Origin: Fibrobacter sp. UWH6
Lineage (GTDB): Bacteria; Fibrobacterota; Fibrobacteria; Fibrobacterales; Fibrobacteraceae
Length of the DNA stretch: 64,000 nt
Assembly: GCF_900142465.1 (NCBI RefSeq)
Contig: NZ_FRAX01000008.1
Coordinates: 1 to 64,000, forward strand
Direction: 5' to 3'
Shown: in pieces, positions 55,157 to 58,228 of the stretch
How the letters are laid out: every line of letters begins with the position of its first letter
Numbering within the stretch: the first letter of the stretch is position 1
The notes under the pieces: model-generated
The model's database searches: none
Seen by the model: the letters and a program-made list of their open reading frames with translations, nothing else
Told to the model about the DNA's origin: nothing
Translations under genes and position numbers: made by a program

Positions 55157-56427
55157 CTTGCCAAACCCTTCTTACCAATGTCCTTACGATAGAACTTACC
55201 TTCGAATTCAACCTTTTCGCAAGCGGCGTATGCAACGTCCAGAGCTTCGCGAAGAGTTGCACCGTGACCTACGACGCCGAACACGCGACCACCGTTGGTG
55301 ACCAGCTTGCCGTCGGCCATCTTGGTACCGGCGTGGAGAACCTGTGCGCCGTTCTTTTCGGCTTCTTCGATACCGGTAACCACCTTGCCCTTTTCGTAGG
55401 AACCAGGATAGCCAGCGCTTGCGAGAACCACGATTGCAGCGGAACCCTTGGGAGCCTTGGGGGCGCCAAGCTTAGAGAGTTCGCCCTTTTCGGCAGCGTC
55501 AAAGAGAGCCAGCACGTCGCCATCGTAAAGCGGCAGAACAATCTGGCATTCCGGGTCGCCCAGACGGCAGTTGTATTCCACAACCTTGGGGCCCTTAGAG
55601 GTCACCATGATGCCCACATAGAGCACGCCAGTGTAGGGCTTGCCTTCGGCAGCCATACCCTTGAGGGTAGGTTCGATAATGGTCTTCTTCACTTCGTCCA
55701 GCAGAGCGTCGGTAACAACCGGAGCCGGAGAGTATGCACCCATTCCACCGGTGTTGGGGCCCTTGTCGTCATCGAAGACGCGCTTGTGGTCCTGGGCGGA
55801 AGAGAGGATGGCGTAATCCTTGCCGTCGGAAACGACGAAGATGGAAGCTTCTTCGCCGTCCATGAATTCTTCGATCACGACAGTCTTGCCGGATTCGCCA
55901 AAGACGGCCTTTTCGCCAAGCATTTCTTCCACAGCGTCGTCAGCTTCCTTGTCGGTCATGCAGACGATGGCGCCCTTACCAGCAGCAAGGCCGGAAGCCT
56001 TCACCACGATGGGAGCGGGATGTTCTGCCAGGAACTTCTTTGCGGAAGCCAGGTCAGTGAAAGTTTCGAATGCTGCGGTGGGGACATTGTACTTCTTCAT
56101 GATGTCCTTGGAGAAAGCCTTGGAGCCTTCCAGAGCAGCAGCACCGGCGGTGGGGCCGAATGCACGGAGACCGCGAGCGCGGAATTCGTCAACCACACCT
56201 GCTACCAGCGGAATTTCCGGTCCGATGATGGCCAGGTCGATGTTGTTAGCCACAGCCAGATCTGCAATAGCCTTGGGGTCAGCCACATCAACGGGGATGC
56301 ACTTGCCCAGGTTTGCCATGCCAGGATTGCCCGGTGCGCAGATGAGAGAATCGCACATGGGGGACTTCTTAACAGCGAGGGCGATGGCGTGTTCACGACC
56401 GCCGCTACCGACTACGAGAATGTTCAT
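55150..56427 (-). CDS. purD: phosphoribosylamine--glycine ligase (GAR synthetase)
   Basis: An ATP-grasp ligase of the second purine step. It starts with MNILVVGSGGREHAIA, has PIVVKASGLAAGKGAIV (ATP-grasp), NTGGMGAYSPAPVV, and the terminal-half VEYNCRLGDPECQ motif with metal-binding residues. At 425 residues it is of normal length. It leads a purD-purE operon; its leader holds a TAG-rich repeat. Confidence 0.96.
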   Translation of the reverse strand: MNILVVGSGGREHAIALAVKKSPMCDSLICAPGNPGMANLGKCIPVDVADPKAIADLAVANNIDLAIIGPEIPLVAGVVDEFRARGLRAFGPTAGAAALEGSKAFSKDIMKKYNVPTAAFETFTDLASAKKFLAEHPAPIVVKASGLAAGKGAIVCMTDKEADDAVEEMLGEKAVFGESGKTVVIEEFMDGEEASIFVVSDGKDYAILSSAQDHKRVFDDDKGPNTGGMGAYSPAPVVTDALLDEVKKTIIEPTLKGMAAEGKPYTGVLYVGIMVTSKGPKVVEYNCRLGDPECQIVLPLYDGDVLALFDAAEKGELSKLGAPKAPKGSAAIVVLASAGYPGSYEKGKVVTGIEEAEKNGAQVLHAGTKMADGKLVTNGGRVFGVVGHGATLREALDVAYAACEKVEFEGKFYRKDIGKKGLARC

Positions 56428-56549: not shown

Positions 56550-56750
56550 CTACAATGCTTTTACCTGTTCCTCGGTGAGATTCTGGTACTTAATGACCTT
56601 TTCCAAAGGAATATTGTCACGAAGCATCTCGCGAGCAGCCTGCAACTTCTCAGACAAAGCCTTTTGGCGTTCTTCCTTGCGGCCAATATCTTCGCCGTCG
56701 GCTTTACCCTGCAGGTACGAGCCTTCTTTTTCGTATGCGAGATCAGTCAT
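56550..56750 (-). CDS. candidate internal in-frame product of the Rpn gene (C-terminal tail)
   Basis: Inside the Rpn gene an ATG at 56750 is in frame and preceded by GGAGG at 56759-56763 with an eight-base gap, a near-ideal ribosome-binding site. It would yield a 66-residue protein (starting MTDLAYEKEGSYLQGKADGE) made only of the C-terminal helical tail. This matches the known arrangement of intragenic Rpn antitoxins. The purine-rich match could be chance, and expression is unproven. Confidence 0.55.
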   Translation of the reverse strand: MTDLAYEKEGSYLQGKADGEDIGRKEERQKALSEKLQAAREMLRDNIPLEKVIKYQNLTEEQVKAL

Positions 56751-57500
56751 GCCGTCGGCCTCCAGAAGAAAAACATCATTAGTGTACGAGGAAAAAGATA
56801 CATCATTTGCAAACTCCCTGTCAAGGAGACCTTCGGCTTTTTCCTCCGTGATTTCCTTATCCTCCAAAATTTCGCGGAAGAGACGAAGCATGTCGGCTCG
56901 GCGGCTCCGTTCACGCTGTTCCAGCGGAGTACGGTCCTCAATAGCAAAGAACTTTTCCAATTCCACCAGGTTAACATCTAGTTTATCATAGTAAAACTTT
57001 TTGTTGCGAACCAATTCCAAAGTGTGGTAGTAATGGTCTCGGTCCAGGACGAACTGATCCTCGGTTAGGATACTCAGAATGTAGATGTGCGGCAGGTCGT
57101 AGGACTTGGATTTCTTCACGGTTCTACTGATTACACGGGATGTGTAGTAGATGAGACGATCAACAAACAACTGGTTATAGTTTTGCTGAACTTCAATGAG
57201 TACAGGTTCCCCCACCTGGGTAGTACCATAGATGTCAAAGATTGCAGTCTTCTCGTTCAGTACGCCAGGGTTTTCTTGCACGCCTAGGGAAAACTTCGAA
57301 ATGGCCTTGTCACCCTCCAAGCCAAGCATTGCGTTGAGGAACATTACGGTTCGCAGCGGTTTGGCTTCGTTCGCTAATAAAATTTTGATCATTCCATCAC
57401 TGAACGGATAGACATTCTTGAAGATCTTGCGATAATGGGCCAGACGGTCGGGATTCTTTTTGATATCCTTCGCCATGGCGATAAATTCCTTGCGATTCAT
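56550..57500 (-). CDS. Rpn-family PD-(D/E)XK nuclease / transposase-like protein
   Basis: A 316-residue protein of the Rpn/PD-(D/E)XK transposase-like family. The N-terminal half has FKNVYPFSDGMIKILLANE and the nuclease core TAIFDIYGTTQVGEP, then VLIEVQQNYNQLFVDR, i.e. the D...E-x-Q catalytic pattern. The C-terminal tail (LRDNIPLEKVIKYQNLTEEQ) is the variable helical end of the family. E. coli RpnA is a toxic anti-phage nuclease held in check by a small protein translated from inside its own gene. GGAG lies before the chosen ATG. It is accessory relative to its housekeeping neighbours. Confidence 0.88.
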   Translation of the reverse strand: MNRKEFIAMAKDIKKNPDRLAHYRKIFKNVYPFSDGMIKILLANEAKPLRTVMFLNAMLGLEGDKAISKFSLGVQENPGVLNEKTAIFDIYGTTQVGEPVLIEVQQNYNQLFVDRLIYYTSRVISRTVKKSKSYDLPHIYILSILTEDQFVLDRDHYYHTLELVRNKKFYYDKLDVNLVELEKFFAIEDRTPLEQRERSRRADMLRLFREILEDKEITEEKAEGLLDREFANDVSFSSYTNDVFLLEADGMTDLAYEKEGSYLQGKADGEDIGRKEERQKALSEKLQAAREMLRDNIPLEKVIKYQNLTEEQVKAL

Positions 57501-57644
57501 TTTCACTCCATAAAAAAAGACCGCCGCTGCTTCCGGGCGCAAGCCCTAGGCAGTAAAGCGATCTAACAAACTATGTTACGTGATGGAATTTAGAAAGAGG
57601 CTACGAGAAAAACAAGGGACCAGGTTTCCACTGACGCATTTTGC

Positions 57645-57838
57645 AAACAACTGTTTGCACGAGAGCCTTGGCGATCAAGTTTACTTGAATCGACATGGCC
57701 GAGGCTTAGGTTGTTCTAGAAACAACTGTTGACACGAGTGTCGTGACCATGGCAAGTTTACTTGCCATTGGGCACCTGTCCTCGCTTGACGGGGATGACC
57801 GAGGTCAAGGTTGTTCTATAAACAACTGTTGACACGAA
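57645..57838. repeat. three copies of a palindrome-bearing repeat between divergent genes
   Basis: AAACAACTGTTTGCACGAG (57645-57663), AAACAACTGTTGACACGAG (57720-57738) and AAACAACTGTTGACACGAA (57820-57838). The last two extend leftward through GGTTGTTCTA into CCGAGG, forming a hairpin (GTTGTT/AACAAC) in a unit of about 40 bases spaced 100 apart. GGCAAG-TTTA-CTTGCC (57751-57766) and a similar palindrome at 57672-57692 lie between. The 57501-58001 gap holds these repeats and the promoter of the small gene, and no larger gene. Confidence 0.75.
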
Positions 57839-57848
57839 AACGTGGCCC

Positions 57849-57878
57849 TTGACTTATTGCACCAGATGGATGTATATT
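57849..57878 (+). promoter_or_regulatory. promoter of the 57-residue gene
   Basis: TTGACT (57849-57854), 18 bases, TATATT (57873-57878). A hairpin GCGCAAT-TAA-ATTGCGC (57880-57896) would lie at the start of the leader, which is about 115 bases long. Confidence 0.7.
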
Positions 57879-58001
57879 TGCGCAATTAAATTGCGCATTA
57901 ATCTGCGCCTCGGTCATATCCAAGCAATCTTGGCTGCGACTCTCGGCTTGCGATTAATTTAGGGTCATTGGCTTATAGAGAATTTCAAGGAGGCATTCAG
58001 A

Positions 58002-58175
58002 ATGGATTTCGTTCGTCCAAACTACAAGACTGTCGGCGACGCCATTTTTGAAGACGGAGAAAAGCGCCAGGCCGAAGAAACCGCCCGCAGGATACTTGCC
58101 GAAAATGAGCCCATGGAAAAGATTATCGCCTACACAAGTCTTTCCAGGGAGCAGATCGAAGCGCTCAAGAAATAA
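58002..58175 (+). CDS. 57-residue protein resembling the Rpn C-terminal tail
   Basis: This short gene has AAGGAGG eight bases before its ATG, a promoter and a strong terminator, so it is very likely expressed. Its C-terminal half (ARRILAENEPMEKIIAYTSL, then SREQIEAL) aligns without gaps to the tail of the neighbouring Rpn protein (AREMLRDNIPLEKVIKYQNL, then TEEQVKAL), about half the residues identical. The N-terminal half begins MDFVRPNYKTVGDAIFEDGE and is also present as a linker-like region. It may be a free-standing relative of the intragenic Rpn antitoxin, or a relic of a decayed rpn copy. Confidence 0.8.
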   Translation: MDFVRPNYKTVGDAIFEDGEKRQAEETARRILAENEPMEKIIAYTSLSREQIEALKK

Positions 58176-58194
58176 TTTGTACGGGTTTAAAGGG

Positions 58195-58228
58195 AAAGGC
58201 TTCTGTCTACTTGACAGAAGCCTTTTTT
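58195..58228 (+). terminator. terminator of the 57-residue gene
   Basis: AAGGCTTCTGTC-TACTT-GACAGAAGCCTT, a perfect 12-pair stem, then TTTT. Confidence 0.93.

Follow-up and report, generated by a model that had tools for sequence, protein, structure and literature searches.

A Fibrobacter rpn nuclease gene that probably encodes its own antitoxin from an internal promoter and start site

From the comparison of related genes, it appears very probable that the rpn gene at 56550-57500 of the window (the whole 64,000-nucleotide stretch of DNA that was analysed) is an RpnL/RpnS-type intragenic toxin-antitoxin unit, whose expression and antitoxin activity are predicted from sequence and by analogy. 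This reading is based on an internal Met codon and Shine-Dalgarno (SD) sequence under synonymous constraint, on a putative promoter at a fixed distance from them, and on the homology of the protein tail to the E. coli antitoxin RpnA_S. It is further based on gene remnants that retain promoter, SD and tail, and on broken nuclease genes in which the tail is still open. The earlier note on this DNA had proposed that the gene encodes both a nuclease and a C-terminal antitoxin, which the synonymous constraint, the fixed-distance promoter and the RpnA_S homology support; both the internal promoter and a neighbouring orphan tail gene had been overlooked there.

The rpn gene (RpnL, 316 aa) is located on the minus strand of a 3.92-Mb genome, with its ATG at 57500, its stop at 56550 and a GGAG five bases 5′ of the ATG, at which the alignments of its homologues also start. 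On the same strand, 122 nt 3′ of it, lies a gene at 56427 which we take from its sequence to be purD. The rpn product matches PF12784 (PDDEXK_2) in Pfam over residues 33-194 with an E value of 8.9e-24, and in this nuclease domain (56919-57404, minus strand) the PD-(D/E)XK catalytic motif is intact, with D89, E103 and Q105 invariant. When matched by motif, these are the counterparts of D63, E82 and Q84 of E. coli RpnA, known to be catalytic from mutants (PMC5350276). The NCBIfam Rpn model TIGR01784 spans nearly the full length (residues 37-315) and scores 42.6 bits, below its cut-off of 52.1. A Foldseek search with the full-length model (pLDDT 68) gave weak matches (E 0.046 or worse) that were not taken as proof; several of the top ones are PD-(D/E)XK enzymes (EcoO109I, NucS/EndoMS and McrC). 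No relatives of the gene were found in viral contigs, no PADLOC family matched it, and no Rfam family was found near it. Terminal inverted repeats are a mark of the autonomous transposase named in older annotation; when the 5′ flank (57480-58200) was compared against itself only, no inverted repeats of at least 14 nt were present, and the literature finds no terminal ones for rpn genes.

Inside the gene, as had been claimed, a GGAGG (56759-56763, minus strand) precedes by eight bases (CCGACGGC) an in-frame ATG at 56750, which opens a frame of 66 residues in the rpn frame (RpnS, 56550-56750, minus strand). To check its conservation we have compared 62 related Fibrobacter rpn genes of the PDDEXK_2 type, covering 35-100% protein identity, and every one of them carries an in-frame ATG behind an SD in its tail, so that no intact nuclease lacking an internal start was seen among them. 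The internal Met and the GAGG are invariant in all aligned homologues, including those only 35% identical, so that the lack of conservation by which the earlier note would have been refuted did not show up; the full GGAGG, which the earlier note had put forward as the motif, is present in part of them only. Such an arrangement is rare in other genes of the same genome, represented here by about 460 kb (400 kb of stretches plus the window): a GGAGG lies 5-9 nt 5′ of 9 out of 2871 internal in-frame ATGs in 325 genes, and in only three genes is the site separated from the stop by 40-100 codons. When the SD rule was relaxed, an SD-ATG was found in the tail of 12 of 267 background genes as against all 62 PDDEXK_2-type rpn genes (for the long-repeat clade of which the tail range was widened to 150 codons), and also in 31 of 36 PF04754-type rpn genes and in seven of seven other, more distant PF12784 genes. 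When E. coli genes were scanned in a similar way, the internal start published for rpnA (codon 244, 49 residues) was found again, and rpnB, rpnC and rpnE gave internal starts as well. Counted against the RpnL/RpnS reading is the weak or absent internal SD in most of the six further rpn-like genes that this genome carries, where L001, L004 and L005 have none, L003 and L007 a weak one, and L006 an AAGGAG. A Fibrobacter-type rpn gene (L145) also occurs in a record titled as a Ruminococcaceae MAG, reflecting either a transfer or a binning error.

Upstream of the internal start, a TTGACA (56819-56824) and a TATCTT (56795-56800), separated by an 18-nt spacer on the minus strand, are placed 45-74 nt before the ATG, and a consensus promoter scan independently listed the same pair at 56824-56795. 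Read as sequence only, this pair would be a sigma-70-like internal promoter. The −35 hexamer is formed by codons L226-D227-R228, of which CTT GAC is invariant in 31 of 31 genes with no synonymous change on the tree, and the −10 hexamer by V234-S235-F236, where GAT GTA is invariant and Ser, when present, is always TCT; GTA (12%) and TCT (10%) are rare codons. In the profile of synonymous conservation, the top 15 three-codon windows all fall within residues 224-257. Among 144 well conserved degenerate columns of 25 close genes, only seven are codon-invariant, and six of the seven are L226-D227 (CTT GAC), D233-V234-S235 (GAT GTA TCT) and the SD residue E247, which amounts to 6 of 17 columns inside the region as against 1 of 127 in the rest of the set (Fisher p = 7e-6). 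When synonymous changes were inferred on a tree of 31 genes, itself constructed from residues 1-220, the promoter and SD columns had none, compared with 7.4 for the mean column and 5.9 for the other columns of the same region. Gene conversion was judged an unlikely cause of this low synonymous change, since the codons between promoter and SD vary near-normally (5.9 versus 7.4).

The pattern CTTGAC-N15-GATGTATNTT occurs about 60 times in 38 genomes of the genus, and a chance origin was rejected since the reversed pattern, used as a control, does not occur at all. Within rpn genes the CTTGAC pattern precedes the SD-ATG by exactly 75 nt where the gene is of the PDDEXK_2 type and by exactly 72 nt where it is of the PF04754 type, the PF04754-type subfamily thus showing the same promoter-SD-ATG arrangement. 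Some of the non-rpn CTTGAC-N15 sites seem to be intergenic, one of them 130 nt 5′ of the start of a 472-residue frame (L236), and these sites look placed as a general promoter would be; the regions 5′ of genes in this genome show a mild enrichment of TTGAC-N17-19-TA...T spacing. In a third rpn type (L075, L204, L225, L228 and L237), CTTGAC-N15-GATGTATATT lies in the central part of the nuclease, well away from the tail and with no SD-ATG nearby.

By profile comparison, the tail is homologous to the RpnA_S antitoxin of solved structure. A profile of 16 tails matched the E. coli RpnA_S entry 7TH0 in the PDB with an E value of 3.4e-8, and the sole match above it was 8VD6, a helical repeat protein hit five times through its own repeats. 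AlphaFold2 models predict, with moderate confidence, one long and two short helices for the tail, which is the layout of RpnA_S (PMC10327210). The four-residue repeats GKAD-GEDI-GRKE (56673-56708, minus strand) begin 15 residues after the internal Met, within the 8-20 residues published for the repeat onset in RpnS. Related tails differ in length mostly by 0, 4 or 8 residues, and nuclease parts that are 85-93% identical can bear tails that are only 38-40% identical. A second hypervariable spot besides the repeats is a short patch near helix 2 (ARNYSVDDIAAI, AEGDSVDKIVRV, AEGLPIEMIVRV), which accounts for most of the difference among the tails of four near-identical genes (L020, L021, L048 and L128). 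In the locus L056 of G000:C26 (positions 149-469 and 2700-2857 of L056), an orphan tail with a main-clade promoter shares its last 158 bases at 95.6% with the tail of an rpn gene of a different type on the same contig; the junction is inside the four-residue repeat region, which suggests exchange of tail modules between rpn types.

In addition to the rpn gene itself, the window contains on the plus strand a 57-aa orphan rpnS of the PF04754-type subfamily (58002-58175), whose nuclease part has been lost and whose full-length relatives carry it as a tail after an internal SD-ATG. Its best PDB match is again 7TH0 (E 0.027), and it has retained a promoter-like TTGACT-N18-TATATT (57849-57878) and an SD, AAGGAGG (57987-57993), both also on the plus strand. 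The full-length relatives read ...NFMEAFK-MDFVRPNYKTV, with TGGAGGC before the Met and TTGAC(A/T)-N18-TATATT upstream, and a 35-nt block (57845-57879) is 97% identical to the intact gene in genome G025. We infer that the 57-residue gene is an antitoxin left behind by a second rpn gene, the rest of which has been deleted. Between the orphan promoter and SD lies an 88-nt insertion with hairpins (57880-57967, plus strand) that is absent from the homologous G025 locus; a 46-nt part of it has one further copy in the genome (G000:C18:6255-6300, 87%), and near the G025 locus there is a copy that has diverged. Between the two rpn units, at 57645-57850, there are three direct copies of a repeat of about 31 nt with spacings of 75 and 100, containing AAACAACTGTTGACACGA, the 24-nt core of which was found nowhere else in the genome when up to three mismatches were allowed.

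At the G025 locus the situation is reciprocal, an intact 296-residue PF04754-type gene adjoining a lone PDDEXK_2-type tail with 90.8% DNA identity to 56550-56831 of the window, in the same orientation. The outer genes of that locus do not align with the window, so the rpn pair may have moved as a unit. Homology of the deletion remnants begins 7 nt upstream of TTGACA in G025 and 4 nt upstream of TTGACT in the window, and in a third orphan (L062, in G006) the start is some 6-9 nt before TTGACA; the remnants L030 and L062 and the window orphan all retain promoter, SD and tail. Three downstream copies (L010, L011 and L043) start right past the rpn stop and consist of SD and tail only, as if they relied on the rpn message. 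In the broken nuclease genes L054, L055 and L061 the tail frame is still open. In contrast, two miniature relics (L207 and L222) keep the promoter codons along with the extreme end of the tail while both nuclease and internal start are gone, and a promoter without an internal start is counted against the RpnL/RpnS reading. Deletion end points 4-9 nt before the −35, as in these three cases, are what an anti-Rpn immunity gene would leave as a footprint: it is possible, if still a tentative idea, that the promoter-SD-tail segment is selected in its own right, the antitoxin being kept after deletion of its nuclease to neutralize related Rpn nucleases, whether newly arrived or still present in the vicinity.

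That GGAGG and ATG are a mere by-product of the peptide Leu-Glu-Ala-Asp-Gly-Met, with no role in translation, would be partly understandable from the conservation of Met251 and Glu247 as residues, by which the protein fixes a part of the motif. The choice of codon, however, makes this explanation highly improbable. E247, the Glu that precedes the internal Met, is encoded by GAG in 30 of 30 genes where GAA is the usual codon (GAG makes up 17.5% of Glu codons genome-wide), no other conserved Glu column in the codon alignment is entirely GAG, and the promoter codons are invariant too. In L052, L143 and L144 one codon has been lost here and the register shifted, yet GGGAGG and the ATG are retained, and orphan tails without a nuclease still have both SD and ATG. 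In a far clade of 12 genes the SD glutamate is likewise GAG in all 12, and a TTG/TTT pair there fits a TTGCTT-N17-TAACTT promoter, although this is suggestive only. Taken together, the invariance of GAG and the absence of any change in the promoter codons point to selection at the DNA level; on the comparative evidence, the putative internal promoter, the SD and the in-frame ATG are shown to be kept by selection on the DNA itself, beyond that on the protein. The promoter might instead serve purD, which is only 122 nt downstream on the same strand, but its constant distance of 72 or 75 nt from the tail SD-ATG in many genomes and its travelling with the tail in orphans leave very little room for such a role.

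A different possibility is that the internal product is made but, instead of being an antitoxin, supports the nuclease as a positive partner, for example as a subunit for assembly or DNA binding or as a repressor of the gene. The tail is a helical dimerizing domain, helix-turn-helix-like features have been reported for RpnS (PMC10327210), and complementary internal products are known, such as Cas11d inside cas10d. Nevertheless, the homologous E. coli tails block their nucleases in vivo and in vitro (PMC10327210), and orphan tails persist after their own nuclease has gone, which makes a positive partner rather improbable. Under the RpnL/RpnS reading, transcription from the internal promoter would begin about 38 nt 5′ of the internal ATG, and the tail, translated from this separate short message, would outnumber the full-length protein. 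By analogy with E. coli, the 66-residue tail would be a helical dimerizing domain that pairs with its counterpart in the full-length protein, so that the PD-(D/E)XK nuclease stays inactive until it is triggered, for example by phage infection, and matching of repeat numbers would make each antitoxin specific for its own nuclease.

As far as the literature consulted shows, what is new here is the Fibrobacter member of the PF12784 type, the codon-level selection on its predicted promoter and SD, and the reciprocal orphan locus. The antitoxin-inside-toxin arrangement would be extended to Fibrobacter, a distant phylum, and to PF12784-type nucleases. A codon-invariant promoter and SD may also serve as a simple comparative test for gene-within-gene antitoxins in genomes without expression data, and since at one locus the nuclease has been lost reciprocally and the tail kept, it becomes testable whether free RpnS genes protect cells from Rpn nucleases.

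Several of these features have known counterparts. The cas10d gene also has an in-frame internal start from which its C-terminal part is made separately, but the small product there, Cas11d, is a complex subunit and not an inhibitor. Closer is an rpn gene of C. difficile, in which blots and mutation have established that an internal start gives a tail protein, this protein being lost when RBS and ATG are mutated (PMC10327210), an experimental result in a different phylum for what is inferred in Fibrobacter. The closest parallel is E. coli RpnA_L/RpnA_S with its paralogues (Zhong et al. 2023, PMC10327210; 7TH0). There, internal in-frame starts yield the tail proteins, as proven by blots, profiling and mutation, and a short message arises from transcription that begins inside the gene; each tail binds to the full-length nuclease it belongs to and inhibits it, with repeat number setting the specificity, and one plasmid-borne system lowers phage plaquing (PMC10327210). 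Internal promoter and internal start were both already marked in a figure legend, and separate rpnS genes were already known (PMC10327210). Shared with the Fibrobacter gene are the PD-(D/E)XK nuclease with its D..ExQ motif, the in-frame internal SD-ATG (there with tails of 49-60 residues), the internal promoter, the four-residue repeats after the internal Met, and the free-standing tail genes. The proven E. coli examples are of the PF04754 type, while the gene here is of the PF12784 (PDDEXK_2) type and from Fibrobacter, which, together with the TIGR01784 score below cut-off, is counted against the RpnL/RpnS reading. Two further differences are that the putative Fibrobacter promoter is shown by codon-level conservation, and that the Fibrobacter tail orphan stands divergently beside the intact gene of the other subfamily.
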